Shown one piece after another: positions 8,567 to 44,950 of a stretch of DNA of 64,000 bases. The stretch's first letter is position 1; each line of letters begins with the position of its first letter. Position numbers and translations under genes: made by a program. Where the stretch lies: contig NZ_WLZY01000008.1 of NCBI RefSeq assembly GCF_010122465.1, positions 124,001 through 188,000 of the forward strand, read 5' to 3'. The stretch is from Phytoactinopolyspora mesophila. Lineage in GTDB: Bacteria > Actinomycetota > Actinomycetes > Jiangellales > Jiangellaceae. The notes beneath the pieces are model-generated. The model had not been told where the DNA came from. It searched no databases and saw only the letters and a list, made by a program, of their open reading frames with translations.

Positions 8567-9487
8567 ATGATGGGACAGATCGTCGTAGGCATCGACGGCT
8601 CGCGCGACAGCGAAGCCGCCCTCTTCTGGGCCGCCAAAGAAGCCCGGCTGCGCGGTGACCGGCTGGTCATCCTCTACGCCGTGCACACACCGGTCACGGC
8701 GGTGCCATTCGGGGGCGCATCCGTGCTGCCACCGACGGCCGAGCTGAAGACCTACGGTGAGAATCTCCTCGAGGTGGCCACTTCCTTGGTCACCACCGAG
8801 GACGCACCGCTGGAAGTCGCCACCGAACTGGTCGTCCAGCCACCGGTGCCGGCTCTGCTCGCGGCATCGCGCACGGCCGATCTCGTCGTCGTCGGAAGCC
8901 GTGGACTAGGCGCCGTCGGTGCCGCCTTCCTCGGTTCGGTGAGCACCCGGGTGGCCAGCCGGGCCGCATGCCCCACCATCGTCATCCGCCCCGATGCGGC
9001 CGAGTACCGCACCACAGGTCCGATCGTGGTGGGGATCGATGGTCCGCAGAGCGACGCCGCCTTCCGGTTCGCCGTGGAAGAGGCCCAGCGCCGCGGGACC
9101 ACTGTCGATGCCGTGCACACATACTGGCTACCGGTGGTCGCGATGCCGATCGAGGGCACCAACATCACCGGCACGTCGGAAACCTACGCTCGGCGTACGG
9201 CTGAAGAGCACATGGACGAGTTCATGGCCCGGAATCAGCATGTAGTGCCGGCTCAGGTCAAAGTGACCACCCAGGTGCTCCTGAACGATTCGGCTGACGC
9301 ACTGTCTCAGCTGAGTGAAACCGCCGCGTTGGTGGTTGTCGGGTCCCGCGGACGCGGCGCCTTCCGGGGCATGCTGCTCGGGTCGGTCAGTCAGCGCCTT
9401 CTGCACCGGGCGAACGGTCCGGTGGCTGTGGTCCACAACGGAGACGCCGCCGACGAGCCCACCGACGCCGAGCGCGCCCAGCCGTGA
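8567..9487 (+). CDS. tandem-domain universal stress protein
   Basis: 306 residues with two UspA domains (about 3-143 and 150-295). Each ends in the nucleotide-binding signature: VVGSRGLGAVGAAFLGS in domain 1 and VVGSRGRGAFRGMLLGS in domain 2, so ATP binding is expected. AGGAAAGGATCC precedes two adjacent ATG codons; the first is used here. Its end overlaps the start of the P-type ATPase by 4 bp, so the two are translationally coupled. This USP-ATPase order resembles Rv1996-ctpF of the mycobacterial DosR regulon. Confidence 0.93.
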   Translation: MMGQIVVGIDGSRDSEAALFWAAKEARLRGDRLVILYAVHTPVTAVPFGGASVLPPTAELKTYGENLLEVATSLVTTEDAPLEVATELVVQPPVPALLAASRTADLVVVGSRGLGAVGAAFLGSVSTRVASRAACPTIVIRPDAAEYRTTGPIVVGIDGPQSDAAFRFAVEEAQRRGTTVDAVHTYWLPVVAMPIEGTNITGTSETYARRTAEEHMDEFMARNQHVVPAQVKVTTQVLLNDSADALSQLSETAALVVVGSRGRGAFRGMLLGSVSQRLLHRANGPVAVVHNGDAADEPTDAERAQP

Positions 9488-12378
9488 AGGGACCGAGTCC
9501 CGCCAGGTCCGATACGGGTCCGGATGGCCCGTCGTCCAGCAGCTCGTCCATTGACGAGGCGGCAGCCGGTCCCGCACACGTGAACCGAGGCTCCGGCAAC
9601 CATCATGTGTTGCCGGAGCACGAGGTCTTCCTCCTGTTCGAGACCGATCGGGAGCACGGGCTCGACGCGGACGAGGCACGACGGCGCCTGCATCAGATAG
9701 GCCCCAACGTGCTTCCCAGGCTCAGCCGGCGCGGCCCATTGGTCCGGCTATTGCTTCAGTTCCACCATCCGTTGATCTATGTGCTGCTGGCCGCGGCGGC
9801 CGCCACGACAGCGATCGGTGAGCTCGTCGACGCCAGTGTGATCCTGGCGGTGGTCGTCCTCAACGCGGGCATCGGCTACCTCCAGGAATCACGCGCGGAG
9901 CGAGCGCTAGATGCCCTGGTCGCCATGGTGCAGACCGAAGCGACTGTGGTGCGCAATGGCAGCAAGGTGCGCATCCCCTCCGAAGAGGTGGTTCCGGGCG
10001 ACGTGGTGGTGCTCGAAACGGGCGACAAAGTTCCGGCTGATCTGCGGCTGTTCGCGGTGCAGGAACTGCAGATCGACGAGTCGGCACTCACCGGCGAGTC
10101 CGTCCCCGTCGCCAAACAGTCGCTGAAGCTGCCGGCCGATACGGTGCTGGGAGACCGCGCCAACATGGCATACTCGACCAGCCTGGTCAGCCGTGGACAC
10201 GGCCGCGGCGTCGTCGTGGCAACCGGCGCCGACACCGAGATCGGCACGATCCACCGGCTGGTGGGCGAGGCCAAAACCCTCCAGACACCACTGACCCGCA
10301 AGATCGGCCGGTTCAGCCGGATTCTGACAGTCGCCATCCTCGTCCTGGCTGCCCTGACGTTCCTGCTCGGCCTGGCCCGCGGCGAGGACGCCGGCTACAT
10401 GCTCACGGCGGCGGTCGCGCTGGCCGTCGGCGCCATCCCCGAAGGGCTGCCGGCCGTGGTAACGATCACCCTGGCGATCGGGGTCGCCCGGATGGCGAAG
10501 CGGCAGGCGATCATCCGAAAGTTGCCGGCGGTCGAGACGCTCGGCAGCACTACGGTGATCGGAACGGATAAGACCGGCACACTGACCAGCAACGAAATGA
10601 CGGTCACCACCGTCGTGGCCGGCGACGAGACATTCACGATCACCGGCACCGGCTACGCGCCCGAGGGCACCATCCGGCTCGAATCCGCTCACACCAGCGC
10701 CGCGCACGCCGATGGTCTTTCACCCGACCGGTTTCCGGCGCTTCGCGAGTGCCTGCTGGCCGGGGTGCTGTGCAACGATTCCCACCTGAGTGAACACGAC
10801 GGCCGCTGGGGTATCACCGGAGACCCGACGGAAGCGGCGATGATCACGGCGGCCGCGAAGGCCGGGCTGCGCCAGGCGGAGGTCAACGACGAGTACCCGC
10901 GGCTGGAGTCACTGCCGTTCGATTCCGACCGCGGCTACATGGTGACCTTGCACCGCAAGCCCGGCGGCGGCACTGTCGCCTATCTCAAAGGGGCAGTCGA
11001 GCGGGTGCTGGCCATGGCCAACCAGGAGCTCGACGCCGACGGACAGCCGGCTCCGGTCGATCACGGCGCCGTGCATGCTCACACGGACCGCATGGCCTCG
11101 GTCGCCTTACGAGTGCTCGCGGTCGCCCGCGTAGACCTGGCGCCGCCGCCGTCAGTCGACCACACGGGCGTCACAACGCTGACCGAGCTATCCGACGAAC
11201 TACTCGCCGGAGCAAAAGTCACCGTGCTGGGTTTGCAAGCCATGTACGACCCGCCACGGCAGGACGCCATCGACGCGGTCGGCACCTGCTTGCACGCCGG
11301 TATCGAAGTCAAGATGATCACCGGCGACCACGCGGTCACGGCCAGGGCAATCGCCGAGCAGTTCGGCCTCAGCGGGCCAGCGGGGCAAGCCCTGGAGATC
11401 ATGACCGGACGTGAGCTCAGTGCATGCCCGGTCGACGAACTGCCCGAGGCGATCGAACGCACGACGGTGTTCGCGCGCGTCAGCCCGGAACAAAAACTCC
11501 GGCTGGTCGAGAGCATGCAGGCGCGTGGGCACGTGGTCGCGATGACTGGTGATGGGGTCAATGACGCCCCGGCGTTGCGGCGCGCGGACATCGGCGTGGC
11601 GATGGGTGTCGGCGGAACCGAGGTAGCGAAGGAAGCTGCCGACATGGTGCTCACCAACGACGACTTCGCCTCCATCGAGGCAGCCGTAGAAGAGGGCCGC
11701 GGCGTCTTCGACAATCTGCGCAAATTCATCACGTTCACCCTGCCCACCAGCATGGGCCAGGGGCTCGTCGTCCTGGCCGCGATCCTGTTCGCCACCCAGC
11801 TGCCGATTCTGCCGGTCCAGATCCTCTGGGTGAACATGATCACCGCGGTGGCGCTCGGTTTGGTGCTGGCGTTCGAACCGCTCGAGAAAGACATCATGGA
11901 TCGTGCGCCGATACCGCCTTCACGACCGCTGCTCACCGCTGCGCTCATGGGCAGGATCGGGCTGGTGTCGATCGTGATGCTGATCGGCGCGTTCTGGCTG
12001 TTCCATCTGGAACTGGACCGTGGGGCGTCGATCGAGGAAGCCCGGACCGTCGCGGTGAACGTCTTCATGCTGGTTCAGGCCGCCTATCTGCTCAGCTGCC
12101 GGTCGCTGGAGCGATCGTTCGTCCACGCCGGGGTGTTCAGCAATCCCTGGGTCGGCGTCGGAATCTCCGCCATGCTGTTGCTGCAGATCGCCTTCACCTA
12201 CGCGCCCTGGATGAACAGTCTCTTCCACAGCGCGCCGGTCGACGCCGGCAGCTGGCTGCGTGCCCTTGGCGTCGCTGTCGCCGCCTATGGTGTGGTCGGC
12301 GCCGAGAAGGCTATTCGCCGCCGGTTGTCATCCCGACCGGGCTACCCCGCGGTCAAAGGCTCCCACGCAGGGCACTAG
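9484..12378 (+). CDS. CtpF-like P2-type cation ATPase
   Basis: 964-residue P-type ATPase of the Ca2+/PMCA-like P2 group. It has the N-terminal cation-ATPase domain, the TGES actuator motif, PEGLP in helix M4 (about 319-323), the phosphorylated Asp362 in DKTGTLTS, and [11 protein letters not shown]. Helix M6 carries [16 protein letters not shown], close to the NMTTA-LGLMLAFEP form I associate with mycobacterial CtpF. The N-terminal ~45 residues are Ser/Pro-rich and probably disordered. GTG start overlapping the USP stop. Probable substrates are Ca2+ or other cations; the exact ion is unknown. Confidence 0.9.
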
Positions 12379-12439: not shown

Positions 12440-13132
12440 GTGAGCGAACAGATCCCGCAGCCCGAACCAGATCGAGTCATCAAAGTCTTCCTCTTGGACG
12501 ACCACGAGGTGGTCCGCCGCGGGGTCGCCTCGTTGCTCGAGATCGAGCCGGACATCACCGTGATCGGCGAGGCCGGGACCGCGGACCAGGCCATGGCGCG
12601 AATCCCCGCGCTCAAGCCGGACGTGGCGATCCTGGATGTCCGGTTGCCCGACGGTGACGGCGTCACGGTGTGCCGCGAGATACGCTCTCGCCTGCCAGGG
12701 CTGGCCTGCCTGATGCTGACCTCCTTCGCCGACGACGACGCCCTGTTCGATGCCGTCATGGCCGGGGCCTCAGGGTATGTGCTCAAGCAGATCCACGGCA
12801 CCGACCTGGTGGGCGCGGTACGGTCACTGGCCGCGGGGCAGTCATTGCTGGACCCGGAGAGCACGTCCCGAATGCTCCAGCGGTTGCGCGACAAGGCCAG
12901 CCGGAAGGACCCGCTGGCGGCGCTGTCCGAGCAGGAGCGCAAGATTCTCGACCTGATCGGCGAGGGCCTGACCAATCGTCAGATCGGCGAGCGGATGTTC
13001 CTGGCCGAGAAGACGGTCAAGAACTACGTCTCCAACCTGCTGGCCAAACTCGACATGAATCGACGCACGCAGGCCGCGGCGTTCTCCGCACAGCTCAAAG
13101 CCGAGTCGGCACGGAACAATCGAGATTCCTGA
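12440..13132 (+). CDS. devR: DevR/DosR-like response regulator
   Basis: 230-residue NarL-family regulator. The receiver domain has LLDDHEVVRRGVASLL and phosphoacceptor Asp66 in ILDVRLP. The C-terminal helix-turn-helix reads RMFLAEKTVKNYVSNLLAKL, then RRTQAAAF, nearly the signature of mycobacterial DevR/DosR. I chose GTG at 12440 because upstream in-frame sequence overlaps the ATPase and is not regulator-like. The nearest DevS-like kinase is 6.6 kb away on the other strand. It is expected to bind the 5-3-5 palindromes listed here, including its own promoter, but this is inference. Confidence 0.92.
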   Translation: MSEQIPQPEPDRVIKVFLLDDHEVVRRGVASLLEIEPDITVIGEAGTADQAMARIPALKPDVAILDVRLPDGDGVTVCREIRSRLPGLACLMLTSFADDDALFDAVMAGASGYVLKQIHGTDLVGAVRSLAAGQSLLDPESTSRMLQRLRDKASRKDPLAALSEQERKILDLIGEGLTNRQIGERMFLAEKTVKNYVSNLLAKLDMNRRTQAAAFSAQLKAESARNNRDS

Positions 13133-19754: not shown

Positions 19755-21452
19755 TCAGAGAGCCGGTGCTTGCCAGTGCAGTTTGGTTCCGCCGCTCGGG
19801 CCGGGCCCGATGTCGAACGAGCCTCCGAGCCGCTGCGCTCGCTCGGCCAGATTGGCCAGGCCGCTGCGTCGGCCGTCCGCGGACACCCCGACGCCGTTGT
19901 CTGTGACGCTCAGCCGGATCTCTCCGTCCGATACGGCGACATCAACGTCCACGCGCGTCGCGTGCGCATGCCGGACGACGTTTGACAATGCCTCCTGGAG
20001 CACGGCTATCACGTCGTGGCCGACGTCTTCGGTGACAGATGTGTCCAGCAGACCTTCCATCCGAACGGACGGTGCGAAGCCGAGCTGCTCGGTTGCCGAG
20101 GCGACGATCCCGACCACCCGGTCACGCAGCGTGGTCTCAGTGCCACTCTGGGCAGACTGAAGCGCGAAGATCGTTGAGCGGATCTGGCGGATCGTCGCGT
20201 CGAGATCATCGACCGTGCGCTGGATCCGTTCCGCGACCTCGGGCCGTTCCACGAGCCGGATGGCCGCCGTGAGGGTCATCGCGCTGGCGAACAGGCGCTG
20301 GACCACCACATCGTGAAGATCGCGAGCGATCCTTTCCCGGTCATCGACAAGCCCATGCCGCTCGGCCTCACGACGCGCATCGGCCAGTTCCAGCGCGACG
20401 GCCGCCTGATCGGCGAACGAACTCAGCATCCCGACCGTCGAAGCGGGGAACGGCGCTTCGCCGCGCCGTTTGACCAAGACCAGCACGCCGCGCACCCGCT
20501 GCCGCGCGCCGAGCGGAACCAGCAGTGCGGGGCCGTTGGGCAGGCGGTCGAGCAACGGAGTGGACTCCACACCCTTGCGCAGTTCCTCGACGGTCCGAGC
20601 CTCACCGCTGGACAAGACCGTTCCGATCAGCGTGCCTTCAGCCGAGAACTCCAGGGTCGCGAGATGTTCAGAACCGGCGCCGTTCGCGGCAAGCACCGTC
20701 ATGATGTCCATCTTTCCGCCGGGTACGGCGACGGCCGCGGTGTGGGCATCGGCCATCTCGCGTGCGTTGCTCGCAACCAGCTGGACAGCAGCCGACGGGT
20801 CCGCGCCCGACAACAACGCCTGCGTCACTTCCGCCGACGCGTCCAGCCAGATCTCACGCCGCTTTGTCTCGTCATACAGCCGGGCGTTCTCGATCGCGAT
20901 GCCAGCGGCGGTGGCCAGAGCCGACACGATGACCTCGTCTTGCTCGTCGAAGTCGCGGCCACCGTGTTTCTCGGTCAAATAGAGGTTACCGAACACGGAA
21001 TCGCGGACCCGGATGGGTACACCGAGGAAGTTGCGCATCGGCGGGTGCCCTTCGGGGAAACCGTAAGACTCCGGATGATCGGAGATACGGTCGAGCCGCA
21101 GCGGTCTTGGCTCTTTGATCAACAGCCCCAGCAAGCCGCGCCCGTGCGGCCATTCGGCGATCTCGGCGATCTCTTCCTCAGTGATACCTACCGGAATGAA
21201 CTGCGCGAGCTGGCCGTCTTCTCCGATGACGCCCAACGCGCCATACCGGCAGTCGACCAGGTCGGTGGCGGCCTCGACGATTCGCTGCAGAACGGTCTCG
21301 AGCTCTAAGTCGCGACCGATCGACACGACGGCCTCGAGCAATGAATGAACTCCGTCTCTGGCCGACACCACGGCCTGCAGGCGCGTCTGCACCTCGGCCA
21401 AGAGCTCATCCAGCGGCAGCTTCGGCAGAAAGTGCCCGGCCTGATCCTCCAT
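19755..21452 (-). CDS. devS: DevS/DosS-like heme-GAF sensor histidine kinase
   Basis: 565 residues from ATG 21452 (AAGGGG upstream). Order: short N terminus, GAF-A (about 54-195), GAF-B (about 220-360), HisKA_3 with RIARDLHD and His380, HATPase_c with DNGVGVS. GAF-A contains GFPEGHPPMRNFLGVP; His136 aligns by eye with the heme-ligating His of mycobacterial DosS/DosT, and FGNLYLTEK follows as in those proteins. It should sense O2, NO, CO or redox state and phosphorylate the DevR-like regulator at 12440. It has no transmembrane segments. It is not adjacent to devR. Confidence 0.92.
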   Translation of the reverse strand: MEDQAGHFLPKLPLDELLAEVQTRLQAVVSARDGVHSLLEAVVSIGRDLELETVLQRIVEAATDLVDCRYGALGVIGEDGQLAQFIPVGITEEEIAEIAEWPHGRGLLGLLIKEPRPLRLDRISDHPESYGFPEGHPPMRNFLGVPIRVRDSVFGNLYLTEKHGGRDFDEQDEVIVSALATAAGIAIENARLYDETKRREIWLDASAEVTQALLSGADPSAAVQLVASNAREMADAHTAAVAVPGGKMDIMTVLAANGAGSEHLATLEFSAEGTLIGTVLSSGEARTVEELRKGVESTPLLDRLPNGPALLVPLGARQRVRGVLVLVKRRGEAPFPASTVGMLSSFADQAAVALELADARREAERHGLVDDRERIARDLHDVVVQRLFASAMTLTAAIRLVERPEVAERIQRTVDDLDATIRQIRSTIFALQSAQSGTETTLRDRVVGIVASATEQLGFAPSVRMEGLLDTSVTEDVGHDVIAVLQEALSNVVRHAHATRVDVDVAVSDGEIRLSVTDNGVGVSADGRRSGLANLAERAQRLGGSFDIGPGPSGGTKLHWQAPAL

Positions 21453-21591
21453 ACAGCTTCGCCCCTTTTCTGCCCTTCGTAAGTCTCTCACCATCGACGA
21501 TTGTTGTCGACAAGGCACGAAGAGGCGTGGGCAGGTCAAAGCTGGCCGAACAGGGCAGGCTGGTGCAGCCCTGTCACCGTGCGTCGGACGC

Positions 21592-22494
21592 TCAGCGGTG
21601 CACGACCGTCACCGGCGCCCCAGCGCGTCGGATGACCGTGCGAGCCACCGAGCCGAGCAACGCCCCAGTGACCAGACCGTGGCCGCGCCCACCGATGACG
21701 AGCCGGTTCACTTCCGGCCCAAAGCTGGCCAGAGCCTCGACGGCGGAACGCTCGTCAACGCTCGTGTCGACCTGAACACCGGGATACATCTCCCGCGATG
21801 GGGCCAACGCGTCCATCAGCGCGCGCCGCGCGTCCTCCACCAGGTAGTCCCGGCCATTTCCGGCGGGCCATCCCTGCGGGTAGCCCGCGGGAAGATCCAA
21901 GGCCAGTACCGCAAGGACCCCGGTTCCCAGTTCGGCAGCCGTGCTGAACGCATAGGCGACAGCGGGCTGGCACCGGTCGGAGCCGTCGATGCCGACCACT
22001 ACCGCGCCGTCGGCGGCTGCCGGCGACGACCACGTGGCAGGGACCACCGTGACCGGAGTGTCCGTGCTGGTCGCACAGGCGACTGCCGTCGACGTCGAGA
22101 GCAAGCTCGCCACCCGGCCGGTGTGCTCACGTCCGAGCACGAGCATGCCGGCGTCGTCGGCGATCCGGAGCAGAACCCGCGGTGGCGAGCCCTGGGCGGT
22201 GTGGGTGGTCATGGCCAGGCCGTCATACTGCTGTGCAGCAAGCCGAGCACGAGCTGCTTCGAAGGCCAACTCGGCTCGTTCATGCCCCACCGGTGTCACC
22301 GGGTAATCGATGACGTTGGCCGGGTAGGCGTGGACGAGCTGAAGCGCTCGGCCGAGGCGCATCGCCTCGGTCGCGGCCCATTCCACCGCGACCAGGCACG
22401 AGTCGGTTCCGTCGACTCCCACCGCGATCGGCGCGGCCACCGGCGTCCGGAGAATGCCGGACTGCGTCTGCAGGTTCTCAGGGCTGATTGTCAT
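21592..22494 (-). CDS. tandem-domain universal stress protein
   Basis: 300 residues, two UspA domains (about 20-155 and 160-298). The second ends in RLVIGGRGHGLVTGALLGS, a complete ATP-binding signature; the first reads MLVLGREHTGRVASLLSTS, where the G-x-x-G part is degenerate, so nucleotide binding there is doubtful. A GGACC-AAT-GGCCC palindrome lies 60 bp upstream of the ATG. It is downstream of nothing on its strand, so it is probably monocistronic. Confidence 0.92.
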   Translation of the reverse strand: MTISPENLQTQSGILRTPVAAPIAVGVDGTDSCLVAVEWAATEAMRLGRALQLVHAYPANVIDYPVTPVGHERAELAFEAARARLAAQQYDGLAMTTHTAQGSPPRVLLRIADDAGMLVLGREHTGRVASLLSTSTAVACATSTDTPVTVVPATWSSPAAADGAVVVGIDGSDRCQPAVAYAFSTAAELGTGVLAVLALDLPAGYPQGWPAGNGRDYLVEDARRALMDALAPSREMYPGVQVDTSVDERSAVEALASFGPEVNRLVIGGRGHGLVTGALLGSVARTVIRRAGAPVTVVHR

Positions 22495-22553
22495 GACTTC
22501 AGAACACCACCTTCGAGGTATACCGGCCTAGAGCCCGTCGCCCCGGCTGGACA

Positions 22554-23312: not shown

Positions 23313-23474
23313 CGGCGCGCGGGACTTCCGGCACTACGACCGTGACCTGCGAAGCAGAAGAGTGGTAGTAGCCGTCCGCGACCGCGGACTGGAACCGGTT
23401 CCTGCGACACACCGAGAGCGTTCGACACGAACAGTTCGAGACGCCGGGTGTCCGCCACGTACGGAGGAAGGGCG

Positions 23475-24416
23475 ATGACACGCCAACACCACGACCAAGA
23501 GGCTGACGCGAGGGCATCCGCAGCCAGCGGCACTACAGCAATGCCACGGCCGATCGCGGTTGGCGTCAACGAAACGCCAGGGAGCCAGCTGGCTCTCCGA
23601 TGGGCTGTCGAAGCAGCTCGCCTGCACCAGCGGCCACTCAAGGTGATCCTGGTCGCCGATCCCGCCCCGGCATCTCACTACTACCCGTACACCCCACCGG
23701 GCTCGTCGGAGACGTTCGTCCTCCAAGGCCCGTCACCGGCGCATCGAACCTCAGAGGCCTTCGAGCGCGCCGTGGCCTACGCTGAGGACCGTTTGCCGGC
23801 CGACGCCGTCACTGGTGTTCACACGCCCGGGCGCACAACGGCCGTGCTGATCGATGCCAGTCGCAACGCTGGGATGCTGGTTGTGGGCTCCCGCGGGCGT
23901 TCGGCGGTCAGCGCGGCGATGCTCGGTTCGGTCAGCGCGACCGTCGCGGCCCGCGCGTCGTGTCCGGTGACCGTTGTTCGCAGCAGTGATCTCGTCCTGG
24001 ACGGTCACCGCCGGGTCGTGGTCGGCGTCGACGGATCGCAGGACTCCGAAGATGCGCTCGAGATCGCATTCCGCGAGGCTTCGGTTCGCAAGCTGCCGGT
24101 CACCGTGGTGCATTGCTGGGCAGACCTGAAAGACGAGCCGCCGGGCAGCGAAGCCATATTCGGCCGCCGCCTACCGGCCGTGGTCCGCAAACTCGCTGAA
24201 TACCGTGAACAGTGGCCCGACGTCAACGCTACGACTCTCCTGCTGCGGGGCGATCCCGCGATCAGGCTGCTCGAAGAGAGTCTGGGGGCGGAACTGCTGG
24301 TTGTCGGTTCTCGGGGACGTGGGCGCATCTCTGGGCCGCTCCTCGGCTCGGTCAGCCAGGATCTGCTTCGACAGGCCCACTGCCCCGTCGTCGTGGCGCA
24401 TCGGCAGGAACACTGA
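23475..24416 (+). CDS. tandem-domain universal stress protein
   Basis: 313 residues from ATG 23475, which has GGAGGAAGGGCG in front. Two UspA domains: the first ends in VVGSRGRSAVSAAMLGSVS and the second in VVGSRGRGRISGPLLGSVS, both with intact ATP-binding signatures. It converges with the hemerythrin-fused ATPase gene, ending 36 bp away. It is the third such protein in the window. Confidence 0.92.
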   Translation: MTRQHHDQEADARASAASGTTAMPRPIAVGVNETPGSQLALRWAVEAARLHQRPLKVILVADPAPASHYYPYTPPGSSETFVLQGPSPAHRTSEAFERAVAYAEDRLPADAVTGVHTPGRTTAVLIDASRNAGMLVVGSRGRSAVSAAMLGSVSATVAARASCPVTVVRSSDLVLDGHRRVVVGVDGSQDSEDALEIAFREASVRKLPVTVVHCWADLKDEPPGSEAIFGRRLPAVVRKLAEYREQWPDVNATTLLLRGDPAIRLLEESLGAELLVVGSRGRGRISGPLLGSVSQDLLRQAHCPVVVAHRQEH

Positions 24417-24451: not shown

Positions 24452-26845
24452 TCACCCGTCGGCCAGGACGTGGAAATTCTCTTCCTCCGAAGCATTGTGC
24501 AGCCGGAGGATCGCGTGCAGCTCATATATCGCCCGCCGCAAATCTCGTAGTTCCGCACCGAGATCGCTGCCCGAGGCTACCGGGACGCCTGGACGCATTG
24601 CGTCGTCCTCCCGCGCCGGTCCGGCATGCAGACGACGGCTGATCTCGTCGGAGAGCTCGCTGATCCGGCCGGCGAGCTCCGTGATCTCGGTGTGTTGCCG
24701 GCTCATCGTCGCTGTCGGATCGCTGCCGCCCAGCGCCCTCGCGACCTCCGGGTACAGCAGCTTCTCGTCGGCTCGCTCATGCGGCAGCAACTCCTCGGTG
24801 AGAAAGGCCGACAGCTGCCGGAGCCGTACGCCGAGTTCATCGCCATCCATCCGGTGCAGCTGGTCGGCCAGCTGGGGCAGTGCAGCGATGCCGGGTTCGA
24901 GTCGCCGGTGCTCTTCATCAAGACGCCGCACCAGCTCGGCCGCGTCGCCGTCCAGTCGCGGTCCCCGGCGACGGTCCGGCCCGAGGGCCCGGAGCGCGTT
25001 GAGGATGGCGACGACGTCGATCACCTCCTGCACCAGGGCACCCACAAGCGGAACCAGCAGGCCAGCCGCCGCGCCGGTCATCGCGACAACGGACAGTCCC
25101 ATGCCCAGCAGCGCACTCTGCCGGGCGATGAGACGGGTCCGACGAGCGATCGCCACCGATTCGGCCAGGCGTTCCAGCCGGTCGACGGTGATCACGACAT
25201 CAGCCGCCTCCGACGACGCGGACGCGCCACGGGCGCCAAGGGCGACGCCCACATCCGCCGCCGCGAGCGCCGGGGCATCATTGATTCCGTCACCGACCAT
25301 GAGCGTCGTCGCCTCAGCGGTCTCTCTCCGCACCACCTCGACCTTTCCAGCCGGGCTTTGCTCGGCGTAGAAGGCGTCGGCGCCGATCTGTGCGGCGACC
25401 TGTGCGGCGACGCCGGCGCGGTCGCCGGTGATCATGACTGTGCGGTCGACACCAGCCCGCCGCAGCAACCGCATGGTCCGCGCCGCGTCACGACGAACCC
25501 GGTCCCGGAGCAGGATCACACCGGCAAGCTCGCCGTCGACCCCGACGAACACCGTGCTCATACCACCCACGGCTGCCCGCCGGCGAGTAGCGACGGCCCA
25601 GGCCGGCGGGTCGGCGGTGACGAGCGACGCCTTGCCGACCGTGACGTCGTGCTCCCCTACTCGCCCGCGCGCCCCGGTTCCAGGCTCCTCGACCACGCCC
25701 GAGGGCAGGTCGAGCGAGAACCCGCCAGCGCGTCCGGCCTCGACGATCGCGGCCGCCAGGACATGGGGAGACGCTTGATCGAGCGACGCGGCGAGCCGCA
25801 AGACCTCGGCTTCGGCGAACTCTCCCGGCGCGAGCACCTCGGCCACGGTGGGCCGTCCGGCCGTCACAGTGCCGGTCTTGTCGAACAAGAGCACCCGGGC
25901 CCGGCCGAGCTGGTCCAGGGCTGCGCCCCCCTTGACCACGACACCACGGCGAGCGCACCGGGACATGCCCGACACAAAAGCGATCGGCACCGCCAGGATC
26001 AGCGGACACGGCGTCGCGACGACGAGCACTGCCACGGCGCGGACGGAATCACCGGAGAGCGCCCAGGCAAGCCCGGCCAGCAGCAACGTAAAGGGCAGCA
26101 GGAATGCCGCGTATCTGTCGGCCATCCGGACGAAAGGCGCGTTCTCAGCGGCCGCCGACCTGGCCAGCCGGACCAGGCCGGCGTAGGTGCCTTCGCTCGC
26201 AGGTGCGGTACAGCGCATGTGCACCGCGGTGCCAGTGCTGATCGTCCCGCTGCGCACCGGGCTGCCCGGCCCGAGTTCCACCGGAAGCGGCTCGCCAGTG
26301 ATCATCGACTCATCGATCAACGCCGTCCCGTCGTCGATGATCCCGTCCACCGGAACGACTTCGCCGGGCCGGACCAACAGACTGTCTCCCGGCTCGACCT
26401 CATCTACGGCGATGGTCTCGATGCCGGTGCCGGTCCGTCGGTGCGCGAAGGACGGCGCTAACGACATCAGCGCCGACAGATCTCGTTCAGCTCGTCGTTC
26501 GGCGCGCTCTTCGAGCGCACGCCCACCGCTGAACATCAGCGCGACGACGGCGCCGGCCAGGTATTCGCCCACGGCAAGGGTCCCGATCAGCGCCAGGACC
26601 GCGATGGAGTCCGCACCGAACTTGCGGTCGCGTAAGGCGACCGCGACCCACCACGCCGCCGGCAGCAGAACGACGACGACCGTAGCTATCCAGACCGCGT
26701 CCGCCACGTCCGGCAGGCCCGCCAGGGCCGCTGCGCCACCACCGCCCAAGCCGGCGGCGGCCATGGTGACCAGCAGTGCGGTTATCGATGGCCGGTGTAC
26801 TCGGCCGGGCGACGAATCCGGCTTCGCGGCCAGCTCATGTGTCAT
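24452..26845 (-). CDS. P1B-type metal ATPase fused to a hemerythrin-like domain
   Basis: 797 residues. There is no N-terminal metal-binding domain. About six to eight helices surround TGEP (actuator), TPCPL (278-282) in place of the usual CPC/CPx, Asp322 in DKTGT, and [10 protein letters not shown]. The C-terminal ~155 residues (about 640-797) form an HHE hemerythrin-like bundle with spaced ligands in LDEEHRR, PHERADEKLLYPE, RQHTEI and RLHNASEEENF. A di-iron or O2-sensing role joined to metal export is plausible but unproven. A GGCC-GAA-GGTCCC element lies ~150 bp upstream. The substrate metal is unknown. Confidence 0.9.
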   Translation of the reverse strand: MTHELAAKPDSSPGRVHRPSITALLVTMAAAGLGGGGAAALAGLPDVADAVWIATVVVVLLPAAWWVAVALRDRKFGADSIAVLALIGTLAVGEYLAGAVVALMFSGGRALEERAERRAERDLSALMSLAPSFAHRRTGTGIETIAVDEVEPGDSLLVRPGEVVPVDGIIDDGTALIDESMITGEPLPVELGPGSPVRSGTISTGTAVHMRCTAPASEGTYAGLVRLARSAAAENAPFVRMADRYAAFLLPFTLLLAGLAWALSGDSVRAVAVLVVATPCPLILAVPIAFVSGMSRCARRGVVVKGGAALDQLGRARVLLFDKTGTVTAGRPTVAEVLAPGEFAEAEVLRLAASLDQASPHVLAAAIVEAGRAGGFSLDLPSGVVEEPGTGARGRVGEHDVTVGKASLVTADPPAWAVATRRRAAVGGMSTVFVGVDGELAGVILLRDRVRRDAARTMRLLRRAGVDRTVMITGDRAGVAAQVAAQIGADAFYAEQSPAGKVEVVRRETAEATTLMVGDGINDAPALAAADVGVALGARGASASSEAADVVITVDRLERLAESVAIARRTRLIARQSALLGMGLSVVAMTGAAAGLLVPLVGALVQEVIDVVAILNALRALGPDRRRGPRLDGDAAELVRRLDEEHRRLEPGIAALPQLADQLHRMDGDELGVRLRQLSAFLTEELLPHERADEKLLYPEVARALGGSDPTATMSRQHTEITELAGRISELSDEISRRLHAGPAREDDAMRPGVPVASGSDLGAELRDLRRAIYELHAILRLHNASEEENFHVLADG

Positions 26846-26993
26846 CGTTCCGATTCCCGCATGGTGATCACCCTTACTTCGAAGTTTTCGTGACCCCGAA
26901 AATCGAGGTTGCCACGCCTGCGGGGCAGCGCATCACCGCGGCGCCACCCCGGTCCGCGTCTCAAGAAAACCAGGCTGGGCCCACCGGGCGGTA

Positions 26994-27007
26994 CGGCCGA
27001 AGGTCCC
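26994..27007. promoter_or_regulatory. candidate DevR-type operator, divergent ATPase/protease promoter
   Basis: CGGCC-GAA-GGTCCC, 77 bp upstream of the hydrogenase-maturation protease start and 149 bp upstream of the fused ATPase start. Confidence 0.48.
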
Positions 27008-27082
27008 GGACCGCGCTGCCCTGCGCCTCTACCTTCGATCAGGCGGATCAGGTGTGATCGAGACAGAGCGGAGGGAAGCCCC

Positions 27083-27580
27083 ATGCACACAACTGATCCC
27101 CGCACCCAGTCCACCAGCACCGGCCAGATCGTGGTCATCGGCGTAGGCAACGATCTCCGTCGTGACGACGGCCTCGGGCCTACCGTGATCCGCAGGCTCG
27201 GCCGATGCACGCTCCCCCACGTCACTTTGGCCGTCTGCGACGGCGAGCCCAGCCGGCTGCTCGAATTATGGTCCGGAGCGGATCTCGCGATCGTCGTCGA
27301 CGCGGTCCAGAACGACCCAGCGCGGCCAGGTCACCTGCACGAGATCATCGTGGATCGTCCAGTCGCCGCCAACCAGGCGCGGACCAGCTCGCACGGCCTG
27401 GGAGTCGGTGAAGCGGTCGAACTAGCGCTCACGCTCGACAGAATGCCGCGCAGACTGGTGATCCTGGCGGTCGAAGGCGCTGATTTCAGCGTCGGGCAGG
27501 GGCTCACCCCGGCCGTGGTGGCCACCCTTGATCGCCTCACCCATCTCATCAATCAGGAAATCAGCTATTGCCAGCGCTGA
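27083..27580 (+). CDS. hydrogenase maturation protease (M52 family)
   Basis: 165 residues from ATG 27083, which has GGAGGGAAG upstream. HyaD/HycI-like signatures: VIGVGNDLRRDDGLGPTVI with the metal-binding Asp, LAIVVDAVQ, and SSHGLGVGEAVELA with the conserved His. Such proteases cut the C terminus of the large subunit of NiFe hydrogenases. No hydrogenase gene lies in the window, so its client must be elsewhere, or the gene is a remnant of a Dos-type hydrogenase set. Confidence 0.88.
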   Translation: MHTTDPRTQSTSTGQIVVIGVGNDLRRDDGLGPTVIRRLGRCTLPHVTLAVCDGEPSRLLELWSGADLAIVVDAVQNDPARPGHLHEIIVDRPVAANQARTSSHGLGVGEAVELALTLDRMPRRLVILAVEGADFSVGQGLTPAVVATLDRLTHLINQEISYCQR

Positions 27581-28246: not shown

Positions 28247-29032
28247 CTATTTCGCGTCGGCCGGACGAGGCAACCAGCACAGCCGATGGTCCGGAGTGAA
28301 CAACCTGCGCACAAGGCCGAGCGTCACGACAACGGTCGTCGTCGCGACGGCACCGAGAATCAGAAACATCACCACGGCCTGGACCAGCACCGCCTGGGTC
28401 GGCGGTACCCCGGCGAGGATCAGTCCGGTCATTGCCCCCGGCAAGAACACCAGACCCGTGGCTTTGGTGATCTCGATCTGCGGGGTGAGGGCCGAGCGTA
28501 GGGCCGAGCGCGCATAGGGCGTGGCAGCCTCGCGTGCGGGCTGGCCGAGTGCCAGGCGCGCCTCCACTTCGTCGCGCTTATCCCGCAACTCGTCCACCAC
28601 TCGGCGGGCGACGAGCACCGTAGCCGTCATCGAATTGCCAACCATCATGCCGGCGATCGGCACCAGGGTGCGGCCTTCGAGCGGCAACACCCCGAAGCCG
28701 AACAGGACCCCAAGTGTGATCACCGCGGCAGCGGCAAATGCCGCAATGGCCAGCCACATGATTCCCGGTACCTCAGGCGCGCGACGACGCGCGACATCCC
28801 CAGCATAGGCGACCATCGCGGCCACCCAGAGCCATGACCAGAGCAGGTTCCGGCCCGGCTCGATCACCAGCGCGAGCGCCGCCCCCACAAGCAGGAGTTG
28901 GACGAGCGCTCGCGTCGCCGCCCAGACAACCTGCCGTTCCAGGCCCAGCCGTTGCCACAACGATATCGCGGCGGCCACACCGACCAATGCCAACGAGGTC
29001 GCCAGCCCGGCGACACTCACCTCTCCCTCCAT
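28247..29032 (-). CDS. FetB/YbbM-like ABC transporter permease
   Basis: 261 residues with about seven helices, matching the UPF0014/FetB family: WAATRALVQLLLVG at the N terminus and IAGMMVGNSMTATVLVARR in the middle are diagnostic. In E. coli FetAB is linked to iron homeostasis. ATG at 29032 follows GGAGATG, 2 bp after the ATPase stop, so the pair is one operon. Confidence 0.88.
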   Translation of the reverse strand: MEGEVSVAGLATSLALVGVAAAISLWQRLGLERQVVWAATRALVQLLLVGAALALVIEPGRNLLWSWLWVAAMVAYAGDVARRRAPEVPGIMWLAIAAFAAAAVITLGVLFGFGVLPLEGRTLVPIAGMMVGNSMTATVLVARRVVDELRDKRDEVEARLALGQPAREAATPYARSALRSALTPQIEITKATGLVFLPGAMTGLILAGVPPTQAVLVQAVVMFLILGAVATTTVVVTLGLVRRLFTPDHRLCWLPRPADAK

Positions 29033-29034
29033 GC

Positions 29035-29715
29035 CTACATCTCCTCGCTGTGTCGCTTGCGCCCGATGGCTTCGCTGGCGGCGCACCGGCCGGCATGAAT
29101 TCGGATGACGACGTCGGCCACCCGCTCCAGTTGGGCACGGTCGTGGCTGACCCACAGCACCATGAGCCCGTCTCGGGTGAGCTCCAGCACCGTGTGTTCG
29201 AAGGAGCGTGCCACGTCTTCATCGAGCGCCGACGTCGATTCATCGAGCATCAGCACCTCGGGCTCGGCGACAAGAGTGCGCGCGACACACACCCGCTGGG
29301 CTTCGCCCCCGGACAGCGCGGTGGCGTCACGTTCCAGCCAGGAATTGTCCAACGCCGCACGCTCCAACGCCTGTTCCAGCTGCTGTCGAGTAGCCTCCGG
29401 CGCGGCCGTGAGCAAGTTGTCACGCACCGTGCCCGGGAAGGGCGTGGGACGCTGGAACACCATGCCGACACGGCGTCTCAACCGCAACGGATCCAGTGCG
29501 CCGACGTCGTCGCCTCGAAACCACACCCGGCCCGACGTCGGAACCTCCAGCCGGTTACACAGCCTCAGCACCGTGCTCTTGCCTGAGCCAGACGGCCCGA
29601 ACAAACCGGTGATGCCACGGGCCGGCGCTCGGGCAGAGAAACCGTCCAGCGCGCGAACGCCGCGGCGCTCCACCACGACCTCGTCGAAAACGAATCCATC
29701 CAGCTCATCTGTCAT
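29035..29715 (-). CDS. FetA-like ABC transporter ATPase
   Basis: 226 residues. Walker A GPSGSGKST, Q-loop in VFQRPTPFPGTV, signature LSGGEAQRVCVART, Walker B VLMLDEST and H-loop VSHDRAQ are all present. It pairs with the permease 2 bp downstream. A start six residues earlier (29733) is possible; MTDELDG was preferred. Transport of iron or another small substrate is inferred from family. Confidence 0.9.
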   Translation of the reverse strand: MTDELDGFVFDEVVVERRGVRALDGFSARAPARGITGLFGPSGSGKSTVLRLCNRLEVPTSGRVWFRGDDVGALDPLRLRRRVGMVFQRPTPFPGTVRDNLLTAAPEATRQQLEQALERAALDNSWLERDATALSGGEAQRVCVARTLVAEPEVLMLDESTSALDEDVARSFEHTVLELTRDGLMVLWVSHDRAQLERVADVVIRIHAGRCAASEAIGRKRHSEEM

Positions 29716-29793
29716 AGAGGAATGCTCGCGCATTGAAGCCGTCTACGGCCGCGTGTACTCCTCGACGGAGCCATGCCGCCCGGCCGACGTTGA

Positions 29794-31020
29794 TCAGTCG
29801 GTGTGAGTGTGTTCGCTTGCCTGACGGCGCACGGACGTCGCCGTGTAGGCGAAAGCCGCCGCCGCGGTCAGCGCGAGGAGGATGAAACCCCAGGTGTATG
29901 AGCCGGTGGCGGTGAAGACCACACCCATCACCAGGGGCGGGAAGAAACCGCCCAGGCCACCGGCGGCGCCGACGAACCCGGTCACGGCACCCACGTTCTC
30001 CGCGCGAACCATCCTCGCGACCAGTGTGAACACCGCACCGGCGCCAGCTCCCAGCGCAGCAGCCATGCCGAGGAAAGCTACGGTACCGAACGGAATCAGG
30101 TCGAGCTCGAAGGCGGCCAGCACAGCGAGGCAGGACACTGCCCCGAAAGCCCACGTCAGCACTGTCACCGGGCTGAGGCGGTCGGACAAGAACCCACCGA
30201 CCGGCCGCATGATCACCGCGAGCATGACGAAACCGGCGGTCCGGAACGACGCATCGGACTGCGAGAGCTCGAAGGCGTTGCGCAGGTACGTGGGTAGGTA
30301 CACGCTGAACGCGACGAAGCCGCCGAACGAGACGGCGTACAACAATGCCAGCGGCGCCGTGGCCGGGATCTTCAATGTCGCGGCCGTGCGCGCGAGCAGA
30401 CCGCCTGACGAGGTCGCGCGGCCGGGCCGGTCGCGCAGCATCAGCCACGCCACGACCGCGTAGACCGCCAGCACGATCGCCATCAGGTCGAAGGGGAATG
30501 ACTCACCGACATTCTCGGTCAGTGGCACCGTGGTGAACGCGGCAATGGCGGTTCCGCCCATGCCGGCGCCGAAGATCCCGAGGGCCGTCCCCCGGTTCCG
30601 CGGCGGATACCACGCGTTGACGAACGGCACACCGATGGCGAACGTGGTTCCGCCGAGCCCGAGGAAGAAGCCACCCACCAGCAGCTCGCCATAGGACTCG
30701 GCGACATGTCCGAGGTAGAGCACGGGCAGGATGGTCAGCAGGCTGACCGCCGGGAACATCACGCGTGCGCCCAGCCGGTCGGTGAGCGCCCCCACGGGGA
30801 TCCGGCCGAGCGAGCCGACGATCACCGGCACGGCGACGACGACGGCCTGCTGGGTGGCGGACAGATCCAGCCGGTCTCGCAGCGACGGGCCGAGCGGCCC
30901 CAACAGGGCCCATGCCCAGAACGTCAGCGTGAATCCGGTCGTGGCCAGTGCCAGCATCACGACGTTGCCAGATGGTTCGGCCGTCTTCGAGTGGGCCGAA
31001 GCTGCCGGGTCCGTGCTCAC
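29794..31020 (-). CDS. narK: NarK-type nitrate/nitrite MFS transporter
   Basis: 408 residues, twelve predicted helices. NarK/NNP-family features: ATTGFTLTFWAWALLGPLGP in helix 1, RIPVGALTDRLGAR, and the Gly-rich nitrate signature GVTGFVGAAGGLGGFFPPL near helix 11. GTG at 31020 has GGAGGGAG upstream. It is divergent from narG across 188 bp, so nitrate uptake and reduction are likely co-controlled. Confidence 0.93.
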   Translation of the reverse strand: MSTDPAASAHSKTAEPSGNVVMLALATTGFTLTFWAWALLGPLGPSLRDRLDLSATQQAVVVAVPVIVGSLGRIPVGALTDRLGARVMFPAVSLLTILPVLYLGHVAESYGELLVGGFFLGLGGTTFAIGVPFVNAWYPPRNRGTALGIFGAGMGGTAIAAFTTVPLTENVGESFPFDLMAIVLAVYAVVAWLMLRDRPGRATSSGGLLARTAATLKIPATAPLALLYAVSFGGFVAFSVYLPTYLRNAFELSQSDASFRTAGFVMLAVIMRPVGGFLSDRLSPVTVLTWAFGAVSCLAVLAAFELDLIPFGTVAFLGMAAALGAGAGAVFTLVARMVRAENVGAVTGFVGAAGGLGGFFPPLVMGVVFTATGSYTWGFILLALTAAAAFAYTATSVRRQASEHTHTD

Positions 31021-31122
31021 GGCGACTCCCTCCGGAATGTGCGAACAGAGTAGGCACACTCGGCGTCCGGGCATGGGCGTTTGCGCGTTCTCGACCGTAC
31101 GCTGCGACCCAAAGATCCATTA

Positions 31123-31136
31123 GGGTCTTTCGACCC
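31123..31136. promoter_or_regulatory. palindrome in the narK-narG divergent promoter
   Basis: GGGTC-TTTC-GACCC: 5-bp perfect arms, 4-bp spacer. It lies 102 bp upstream of narK and 72 bp upstream of narG. Spacing and bases differ from the 5-3-5 set, so the binding protein may be another regulator (for example the NarL-type one at 1383). Inference only. Confidence 0.5.
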
Positions 31137-31208
31137 TGTTGTGACCCGTGGGGCGCTCGGGCATGGTGGGAGTCAACGAGTTTTCCGCGCCTACACGGGG
31201 TGGATTCA

Positions 31209-34200
31209 ATGACACAAGGTGCCAACGACGACACCACCGGACTCGATGGCGCGGTCAGCGACTTGCTGCTGCGGACCGGCCGGTATTTCACCCGTAGTGA
31301 GGTCGGTGATCACCTCCGCACCGTGCACAAGCGCGGCGGCCGGGGGGGCGACGTCTTCTACCGCGACCGCTGGAGCCATGACAAGGTGGTGCGCTCCACT
31401 CACGGGGTGAACTGCACCGGCTCGTGTTCGTGGAAGGTCTACGTCAAGGACGGGATCATCACCTGGGAGAGTCAGGAGACCGACTACCCGAGCGTCGGCC
31501 CGGACCGGCCGGAGTACGAACCCCGCGGTTGTCCTCGCGGCGCCGCCTTCTCCTGGTACACGTACTCACCCACCCGGGTGCGCTATCCGTATGCCCGGGG
31601 CGTACTGGTGGAGATGTTCCGCGAGGCGAAAGCCCGGCTGGGCGATCCCGTGGACGCGTGGTCGGACATCCAGGCCGATCCGGAACGTCGCCGCCGCTAC
31701 CAGAAGGCGCGCGGCAAAGGCGGGCTGATCCGGATCAGATGGGAAGAAGCGGTCGAGATGATCGCCGCCGCCCACGTGCACGCGATCAAGACCTACGGCC
31801 CGGACCGCGTCGCCGGGTTCTCCCCCATTCCCGCGATGTCGATGGTGTCCCATGCTGCCGGCGCCCGGTTCATCGAGCTCATCGGTGGCGCGATGACGTC
31901 GTTCTACGACTGGTACGCCGATTTGCCGGTGGCCTCGCCCCAGGTGTTCGGCGACCAGACCGACGTTCCCGAGTCCGGCGACTGGTGGGACGCCTCGTAT
32001 CTGGTGATGTGGGGCTCCAACGTGCCGGTGACCCGCACCCCCGACGCGCACTGGATGGCCGAGGCGCGCTACCGGGGCACCAAAGTCATCGCTGTCTCCC
32101 CGGACTACGCCGACAACACCAAGTTCGCTGATGAATGGCTGCCGGCCCAGCCGGGCACCGACGGCGCGCTCGGCATGGCGATGGGCCACGTCATCTTGCG
32201 TGAGTTCTTCGTCGAGCGCCAGGTCCCAGCATTCAGCGACTACGTCCGTCAGTACACCGACCTGCCGTTCCTGGTCACGCTGACCGAACGCGACGGCGCC
32301 TACGTGCCGGGCAAATTCGTCACAGCCGCGGATCTGGCCGCCGACGACGCGCGGGAACCCGGCGAGGGTGATGAGTGGAAGACCGTCGTCCTCGACGAGC
32401 ACACCGGCACACCCGTGGTGCCGAACGGGTCGATCGGGTTCCGGCACACCGAATCCGGGATCGGGCGCTGGAACCTGGACCTCGACGACGTCCAGCCCCG
32501 GCTCACGCTGCACGCCGAACCGGACAGCACCGGTGTCGAGCTGCTGCTCCCCCGGTTCGACGAGCCCACCGGTCCCACGGTGCTGCGCCGCGGCGTCCCT
32601 GCCCGCAGGCTGGGCGAGCGGCTGGTCACCACCGTGTTCGATCTGATGCTCGCCCAGTACGGCGTCGCCCGGGATGGCCTTCCTGGCGAGTGGCCCACCG
32701 GGTACAACGATCCGACGCATCCGTACACGCCGGCCTGGCAAGAAGAGATCACGTCGGTCAAGGCCGAGACCGCGGCCCGGATCGCCCGTGAGTTCGCCCA
32801 GAACGCCGAAGAGTCCGGCGGGCGCTCCATGGTGATCATGGGCGCCGGGATCTGCCAGTGGTTCCACGGTGACACCACCTACCGGTCCATCCTCGCGTTG
32901 CTGATGCTGACCGGATGTATGGGTCGCAACGGCGGCGGCTGGGCTCATTACGTCGGGCAGGAGAAATGCCGTCCGTTCACCGGCTGGGCCACGCTCGCCA
33001 TGGGTCTGGACTGGTCCCGCCCACCGCGGCAGATGATCGGCACCGCCTACTGGTACACCCACACCGATCAGTGGCGCTACGACGGATACCAGGCCAACGC
33101 GCTGGCGTCGCCGCTGGCCACCGGCCACTTCGATCAGATGCACACCGCCGACGTCGTCGCTCAGTCCGCCCGGATGGGCTGGATGCCGTCCTACCCGCAG
33201 TTCGACCGCAGCCCGCTCGATCTGGTCGACGAGGCCGAGGCGGCCGGCGTCGACCCCAAGGAACACGTCGTCCAGCAGCTGCGCAGCGGCCAGTTGGGAT
33301 ACGCCTGCGAGGATCCGGACGCTCCGGAGAACTGGCCGCGGGTGCTCACGGTTTGGCGGGCCAACCTGCTGGGCTCGTCGTCGAAGGGCAACGAGTACTT
33401 CCTCCGGCACCTGCTGGGCACGGACGCGAACCTGCGTGCCTCGCAGACCCCGGAGGATCGCCGCCCGCGCGACGTGACCTGGCGGGCCGAGGCGCCCGAG
33501 GGCAAGCTCGACCTGCTGCTGTCGATGGATTTCCGGATGACCAGCACCACGCTGCTCTCCGACGTCGTGCTCCCCGCGGCCACCTGGTACGAGAAACATG
33601 ACTTGTCCACCACGGACATGCACCCGTACATTCACGCGTTCACCCCGGCCATCGATCCACCCTGGGAGACCCGCAGCGATTTCGACACGTTCTCTGGGAT
33701 CGCCCGGGCGTTCAGCGCGCTGGCCGCCAAACACCTCGGCGTGCGCAAGGACCTGGTGGCCACCGCGCTCCAGCACGACACCCCCGGCGAGGTCGCCCAG
33801 CCCGGCGGCCTGGTGCGGGACTGGCGCCGCGACGACGTCGACCCGGTTCCCGGCCGGTCCATGTGGGGCCTGGCCGTCGTCGAACGTGACTACGCCGCGA
33901 TCGCGGAAAAGATGGCGACACTCGGCCCGCTGGTGGACAGTCTGGGCACCACGACCAAGGCGGTGACCATCAAACCGGATCGCGAGGTCTCCGAGCTCGC
34001 GGCCCTGGGTGGTGTCATGAACGCACCCGGTTCTCCGGCCGACGGACGCCCCGCACTCGACACCGACATCAAGATGGCCTCGGCCATCCTCGCGTTGTCC
34101 GGCACCACCAACGGCAGGCTAGCCACCGAAGGTTTCCGCGTTCTGGAGAAGCGGGTGGGCCGTCCGTTGCACCACCTGGCCGAAGGCGCCGAAGAGAAGC

Positions 34201-34934
34201 GGATCACCTTCCCGGACACCCAGGCCCGGCCGGTTCCGGTCATCACCAGCCCCGAGTGGTCCGGCAGCGAGACCGGCGGGCGCCGGTACGCGCCGTTCAC
34301 CGTCAACGTCGAAGAGCTCAAACCGTGGCACACCCTCACCGGGCGGATGCACTTCTTCCTCGACCACGACTGGATGAGCGATCTTGGCGAGACACTCCCG
34401 GTGTTCCGGCCACCCCTGGACATGACCGCGCTCTTCGACGAGCCGGCTCTGGGCGACGGCAGCGGCACCGGAGTCACCGATCTCACCGTCAGATACCTGA
34501 CCCCGCATTCGAAGTGGTCGATCCACTCCGAATACCAGGACAACCTGCTCATGCTCAGTCTTTCCCGCGGCGGCCCGACGATGTGGATGAGCCCGGCCGA
34601 CGCCGCCCGGATCGACGTGAGCGACAACGACTGGGTCGAGGCGGTCAACCGCAACGGCGTGGTGGTGTGCCGGGCCATCGTGTCGCACCGGATGCCGGCC
34701 GGGACAGTGTACGTTCACCACGCCCAGGAACGCACCATCGACGTCCCTCTCACCGAGACCACCGGCAAACGCGGCGGCATCCACAACTCGCTGACCCGGC
34801 TGCTGGTCAAACCCACCCATCTGATCGGCGGCTACGCGCAACTCTCCTTCGCCTTCAACTACCTCGGGCCCACCGGAAACCAGCGCGACGAGATCACCGT
34901 CGTGCGCCGGCGCTCCCAGGAGGTGACCTACTGA
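31209..34934 (+). CDS. narG: respiratory nitrate reductase alpha subunit
   Basis: 1241 residues. Molybdopterin-bisMGD catalytic subunit reducing nitrate to nitrite at the cytoplasmic face. The FS0 cluster ligands are visible as His65, Cys69, Cys73 and Cys108, with the same spacing as E. coli NarG. The N-terminal NarI-anchoring tail is also present. ATG 31209 was chosen over upstream frames because the NarG N terminus (TGRYFTRSE) begins here. First gene of narGHJI; its stop overlaps the narH start. Confidence 0.97.
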   Translation: MTQGANDDTTGLDGAVSDLLLRTGRYFTRSEVGDHLRTVHKRGGRGGDVFYRDRWSHDKVVRSTHGVNCTGSCSWKVYVKDGIITWESQETDYPSVGPDRPEYEPRGCPRGAAFSWYTYSPTRVRYPYARGVLVEMFREAKARLGDPVDAWSDIQADPERRRRYQKARGKGGLIRIRWEEAVEMIAAAHVHAIKTYGPDRVAGFSPIPAMSMVSHAAGARFIELIGGAMTSFYDWYADLPVASPQVFGDQTDVPESGDWWDASYLVMWGSNVPVTRTPDAHWMAEARYRGTKVIAVSPDYADNTKFADEWLPAQPGTDGALGMAMGHVILREFFVERQVPAFSDYVRQYTDLPFLVTLTERDGAYVPGKFVTAADLAADDAREPGEGDEWKTVVLDEHTGTPVVPNGSIGFRHTESGIGRWNLDLDDVQPRLTLHAEPDSTGVELLLPRFDEPTGPTVLRRGVPARRLGERLVTTVFDLMLAQYGVARDGLPGEWPTGYNDPTHPYTPAWQEEITSVKAETAARIAREFAQNAEESGGRSMVIMGAGICQWFHGDTTYRSILALLMLTGCMGRNGGGWAHYVGQEKCRPFTGWATLAMGLDWSRPPRQMIGTAYWYTHTDQWRYDGYQANALASPLATGHFDQMHTADVVAQSARMGWMPSYPQFDRSPLDLVDEAEAAGVDPKEHVVQQLRSGQLGYACEDPDAPENWPRVLTVWRANLLGSSSKGNEYFLRHLLGTDANLRASQTPEDRRPRDVTWRAEAPEGKLDLLLSMDFRMTSTTLLSDVVLPAATWYEKHDLSTTDMHPYIHAFTPAIDPPWETRSDFDTFSGIARAFSALAAKHLGVRKDLVATALQHDTPGEVAQPGGLVRDWRRDDVDPVPGRSMWGLAVVERDYAAIAEKMATLGPLVDSLGTTTKAVTIKPDREVSELAALGGVMNAPGSPADGRPALDTDIKMASAILALSGTTNGRLATEGFRVLEKRVGRPLHHLAEGAEEKRITFPDTQARPVPVITSPEWSGSETGGRRYAPFTVNVEELKPWHTLTGRMHFFLDHDWMSDLGETLPVFRPPLDMTALFDEPALGDGSGTGVTDLTVRYLTPHSKWSIHSEYQDNLLMLSLSRGGPTMWMSPADAARIDVSDNDWVEAVNRNGVVVCRAIVSHRMPAGTVYVHHAQERTIDVPLTETTGKRGGIHNSLTRLLVKPTHLIGGYAQLSFAFNYLGPTGNQRDEITVVRRRSQEVTY

Positions 34935-44757: not shown

Positions 44758-44950
44758 TGCCCGCGCCCCCAATCATTCAGGATGAACGCATCCGCCTTGC
44801 TCTTCACCATCTGCAGGCTCGCCACCATTGGGTAGAGGAATTGGTCCTGACCGGACCAGAGTCAAGTCAGCAGAACACCACGAGTTCGACTGAACGACGT
44901 CCGCTCGCGTCCATCTCATCCGCCGGAAGAAGGTTGTCGGTCACACCCGA

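Follow-up and report, generated by a model that had tools for sequence, protein, structure and literature searches.

P1B-5 ATPases that end in a hemerythrin-like domain have been described for Acidothermus cellulolyticus (2010) and for Nia of Sinorhizobium meliloti (2013), as recounted in a review (PMC9388753). The S. meliloti protein, Sma1163, is reported to have Ni2+ and Fe2+ as substrates, and a nia mutant to have built up nickel and iron; in another S. meliloti strain, deletion of nia is reported to have left tolerance to Cu, Zn, Cd, Pb, and Ni unchanged in an assay that did not extend to iron (both as given in PMC4932525). Nia has been counted among the iron-exporting P-type ATPases (PMC7762939), and the S. 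meliloti protein is described as binding O2 in an oxy form of unusual stability (PMC9388753). In this study, we examined a stretch of 64,000 nucleotides from the genome of Phytoactinopolyspora mesophila, here called the window, in which a first-pass annotation had pointed out such a fusion and had known of no defined substrate for it. Since Nia has the same fusion and Ni2+/Fe2+ as its reported substrates (PMC4932525), that last statement was wrong. The window ATPase is almost certainly a member of the P1B-5 family, an already described fusion kind, and the fusion is no longer undefined: it belongs to a known but little-studied pump family that the present locus would tie to hypoxia regulation in actinomycetes. 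What is noteworthy here is the setting: the pump gene probably belongs to the DosR set of low-oxygen genes, and close to it lie genes for a hydrogenase-maturation protease, an orphan in this genome, and for a putative iron exporter. The features discussed below are listed in the table.

Features of the window around the ATPase gene (positions are those of the window)
Feature	Position	Strand	Remarks
DevR/DosR orthologue	12440..13132	+	presumed start at 12440; DosR-like boxes at 12369 and 12390
DosT/DevS-type sensor histidine kinase, heme-type GAF domain	19755..21539	-	HPPMR motif kept
Universal stress protein	21592..22494	-	AGGACCAATGGCCC box at 22553
Tandem universal stress protein	23448..24416	+	
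P1B-5-type metal ATPase with C-terminal hemerythrin-like (HHE) domain	24452..26845	-	797 aa, ATG start
Hemerythrin-like domain, residues 639-792	24470..24931	-	PF01814, ligand conservation, AlphaFold2, YtfE profile match
TPCPLI ion-site motif in TM4, residues 278-283	25997..26014	-	starts at T278
DosR/OsdR-like box CGGGACCTTCGGCCGT	26993..27008	-	candidate site, 148-163 bases ahead of the ATPase start codon
Hydrogenase-maturation protease (TIGR00072 family)	27083..27580	+	divergent from the ATPase gene; orphan in the genome
FetB-like (UPF0014) permease and FetA-like ABC ATPase, putative iron exporter	28247..29733	-	below NCBIfam equivalog cut-offs
Nitrate reductase alpha subunit NarG	30948..34934	+	in nar cluster

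Pfam searches of the ATPase protein revealed an E1-E2_ATPase domain at residues 129-300 (1.7e-42), a Hydrolase domain at residues 317-531 (3.6e-23), and the C-terminal Hemerythrin domain (3.3e-12; 47.4 bits versus a cut-off of 25.3), while no HMA metal-binding domain was found. With the actuator, a match to the heavy-metal P-type ATPase model TIGR01525 of NCBIfam (503.9 bits), and the P-domain motif DKTGT at residues 322-326, the P1B core is present. The first-pass description of a P1B ATPase that lacks an N-terminal metal-binding domain, has TPCPL in place of CPC, and ends in a hemerythrin-like domain was thus borne out. TPCP is taken as the mark of P1B-5 ATPases, and relatives without the hemerythrin-like domain carry it too. 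T278, P279, C280, and P281 are invariant in 46/46 domain-bearing relatives, and TPCP occurs in all but one of the 58 aligned sequences, the exception being SPCP. Likewise, Q606, E607, and D610 of TM6 do not vary across all 58 sequences. A structure model of the full-length ATPase had a mean pLDDT of 74.3, and no claim is built on it. A small open reading frame overlapping the ATPase start (26842-27225, minus strand) was rejected as a gene; it has no Pfam match and covers the promoter region. The window also harbors a second P1B ATPase (42058-44772, minus strand) of the copper type (TIGR01511, 617 bits).

Within the class, 61 of 395 genomes match the ATPase at 1e-110 or better. Setting aside two contig-truncated matches, all 38 matches of at least 577 bits (37 genomes) extend to the end of the domain, so that its absence from close homologues, which the first-pass annotation had named as counting against its reading, was not observed in this clade. 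Matches of 405-466 bits come from shorter frames and extend to about residue 621-664. Relatives at a greater distance (identity of about 44-52%) have no hemerythrin-like domain. In the tree, the domain-bearing rows cluster together except for a domain-less trio of one family with long branches (L157, L159, and L160), which falls inside their cluster at modest support; the domain-less L006 and L007 (about 50% identity) lie just outside the group. Match extents and tree placement together indicate a domain that is stably kept within the clade and was probably lost in one lineage. In the trio, the TM6 motif reads ILWAL, IFWAL, and ITWAL, respectively, instead of ILNAL, and a change of substrate is possible there.

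The placement of the gene in a Dos block, also put forward in the first-pass annotation, agrees with our findings: a DevR/DosR orthologue, a DosT/DevS-type kinase, universal stress proteins, and a DosR-like box are all found nearby. The regulator scored 271 bits to DevR of Mycobacterium tuberculosis (next best, 158), and the kinase scored 181 bits to the GAF domain of DosT. Another regulator gene of the window (1383-2021) was rejected as DosR, since its product is nearer to VraR than to DevR and the regulator listed in the table is the better candidate. The window contains narI together with narG. Directly upstream of the DosR orthologue and beside a universal stress protein lies a P2-type cation ATPase (9484-12378, plus strand) reminiscent of CtpF. 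Across genomes, universal stress protein genes occur within the same ~20 kb at 14 of the 37 loci that bear the domain (a count that takes in the window and its sister), compared to 1/20 among the control segments (p=0.01) and 0/7 at loci of domain-less relatives; since the controls were hand-picked and the loci come from related, non-independent genomes, this and the other p values given here are indicative only. Enrichment of DosR-like regulators and of the GAF kinase as neighbours was not significant in the same comparison of 37 loci with 20 controls. A tally of P2-ATPase neighbours was discarded because the query also matches the P1B-5 gene itself and the count was inflated.

A box, CGGGACTTTCGGCCCC, is found at the same place in the sister genome (L096, 10894-10909) as the one upstream of the window ATPase gene. 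OsdR sites in the literature include AGGGACCTTCGGCCCC, whose core is the same as that of the ATPase box (PMC5069765). The ATPase box surfaced only with a pattern resembling these OsdR sites; the strict mycobacterial DosR consensus gave no exact match in the window and was not overrepresented when up to 3 mismatches were allowed. For the pattern RGGRCCWWNGGYC, the window has 4 occurrences where 0.41 would be expected, a count that is not independent because the pattern was picked after the site had been seen. Using a scoring matrix made from published OsdR sites, we found that domain-bearing genes outscore both control genes (p=0.007) and domain-less relatives (p=0.002). Strong boxes (score of at least 10) are nevertheless a minority, present at 6 of 44 domain-bearing homologues versus 6.9% of controls, and the box is weak or missing upstream of many domain-bearing homologues. 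Judged from sequence, the ATPase gene probably belongs to the DosR (low-oxygen) gene set of P. mesophila.

Furthermore, the FetAB-like pair near the pump is syntenic with it in the sister locus L096. A tally of FetA-like neighbours was uninformative, since such ABC genes are common everywhere (6/20 controls). Plasmid-borne copies of the pump in Rhodococcus and Mycolicibacterium (L093 and L094, respectively) are found near VIT family genes, with a ferritin-family gene also present in L094.

We give about an even chance to the following scheme as a whole, that of a P1B-5 iron efflux pump under DosR control whose C-terminal domain reports to the ATPase. The pump, of the Nia/Acidothermus type, would export cytoplasmic Fe2+ and possibly also Ni2+. 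Its expression would probably be turned on by the hypoxia regulator DosR, along with the universal stress proteins, nitrate reductase, and the FetAB-like iron exporter. Falling oxygen would enlarge the pool of free Fe2+, which the pump would relieve, while the di-iron domain may report iron loading or the O2/NO state to the ATPase, the latter being what the first-pass annotation had put forward. Family membership, ligand conservation (see below), box placement, and the Dos-block context support the scheme from the sequence side; the substrate in P. mesophila, control by DosR, and gating by the domain are inferred, and transport of Ni2+/Fe2+ by the window pump is proposed by analogy with the substrates of Nia. 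If DosR control and iron export hold true, iron efflux would join the dormancy response, and the signal sensed by the domain would become testable outside the legume nodule.

The divergent neighbour of the pump gene is a hydrogenase-maturation protease (100.7 bits versus a cut-off of 47.45 for TIGR00072), and this raises the question of whether the pump could instead serve nickel homeostasis, setting cytoplasmic nickel for a group-3b-like [NiFe]-hydrogenase of the Dos block, with the strain having lost the hydrogenase and kept the pump and one protease. The sister genome (G003) has a HyhBGSL-like operon of this group with its own protease 4-8 kb from the pump, plus a second hydrogenase-maturation protease at the syntenic place. 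Members of two other families (L144 and L163; genomes G172 and G040) also have this hydrogenase type within about 10 kb of the pump, and Ni2+ is reported to be handled by Nia (PMC4932525). Only 3 of the 37 loci that bear the domain, however, have hydrogenase genes nearby, versus 1 of 20 controls (p=1), i.e., there is no significant general linkage. In addition, the pump is kept in a genome (99.46% complete) without matches to the [NiFe]-hydrogenase large subunit, urease alpha, or HypA, from which the hydrogenase appears to have been lost. The lack of these three in its own genome makes us lean towards iron, and we consider a nickel homeostasis pump unlikely.

Regarding the C-terminal domain, the predicted ligands are H646, H689, D693, H718, E720, H783, and E787, with E788 adjoining. 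When 46 domain-bearing relatives, drawn from Actinomycetota and Pseudomonadota, were aligned, the four histidines, E720, and E787 proved invariant (46/46), which excludes chance. Position 693 is Glu in 39/46 and Asp in 7/46, the window protein being among the latter, and position 788 is Glu or Asp in 45/46. The full set of His/Glu ligands seen by the first-pass annotation thus needs correction: residue 693 is Asp in the window protein, and where the canonical HxxxH has its second His, the window protein has T722 (His in 6/46). While the five-His set with HxxxH of oxygen-carrying hemerythrin is not found in the domain, the ligand pattern of P1B-5 proteins, H-HxxxE-HxE-HxxxxD, is present as H646, H689xxxD693, H718xE720, and H783xxxE787-E788, with conservative departures of Asp for Glu and Glu for Asp.

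The AlphaFold2 model of the domain consists of four long helices (pLDDT 86.9). A Foldseek search of the PDB with this model gave no match at E<=0.001, the top entries being generic four-helix bundles, whereas a profile built from six domains had YtfE as its best PDB match (4.8e-5). The ligands of YtfE are H84, H129, E133, H160, H204, and E208 (PMC9268430). Both the window domain and the YtfE/RIC proteins have four His and two bridging carboxylates of the HxxxE type, and E720 aligns with E162 of YtfE, although the profile alignment places the first His three residues off. YtfE/RIC proteins differ in being stand-alone, with an N-terminal ScdA domain and no pump fusion, and the sequence similarity is weak, as the E value above indicates. 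Pfam found no ScdA domain in the ATPase protein, and the DnrN model of NCBIfam reached 18.2 bits against a cut-off of 300. By its residues, the ligand pattern resembles that of YtfE/RIC di-iron proteins more closely than that of oxygen-carrying hemerythrin.

This likeness bears on what the domain does. Instead of sensing, it could act as a membrane-tethered enzyme with a nitrite or NO reductase-like activity such as that reported for YtfE, which is the best profile match and has been described as an NO-generating nitrite reductase; the nitrate reductase cluster begins about 4 kb from the pump. The missing ScdA domain speaks against such a role, as does a literature search that turned up no catalytic data on any P1B-5 domain, and we regard it as highly improbable. 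Among sensing functions, all within the scheme of a DosR-controlled iron efflux pump, the domain may respond to iron loading rather than to gas, with high cytosolic Fe2+ activating the pump. The ligands fit those of YtfE/RIC proteins, whose labile iron can be donated, and the review allows either oxygen/redox or iron sensing by the domain (PMC9388753). On the other hand, the same review reports that O2 binds to the S. meliloti protein in a stable oxy form, and the Dos-block context suggests control by gas, though at the level of expression. An iron-loading sensor is a serious possibility that falls somewhat short of an even chance. A bolder form of the iron efflux scheme would have the pump as an exporter of the DosR regulon whose di-iron domain reads O2/NO directly, so that hypoxia would act on transcription as well as on the pump itself, and would have it evolutionarily coupled to the [NiFe]-hydrogenase of the Dos block; in this combination we find it decidedly unlikely.

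Compared to the described P1B-5 pumps, the window protein resembles A0LQU2 of A. cellulolyticus by description, which has actuator, ATP-binding, and C-terminal hemerythrin-like domains according to the review (PMC9388753). On pSymA of S. meliloti 1021, the best-matching protein (L092) shows 45% identity over 777 aa, domain included, and we take it as Nia (SMa1163), the record itself carrying no gene annotation. It shares the domain order, the TPCP motif, and the C-terminal hemerythrin-like domain with the window protein and, like it, has Asp at position 693, where most relatives have Glu. In contrast to the window gene, which lies within a DosR block, nia is located on a symbiotic plasmid. CtpF of the mycobacterial DosR regulon is likewise a P-type ATPase of a Dos regulon but, unlike the window pump, it is a calcium pump of the P2A type and has no hemerythrin domain.
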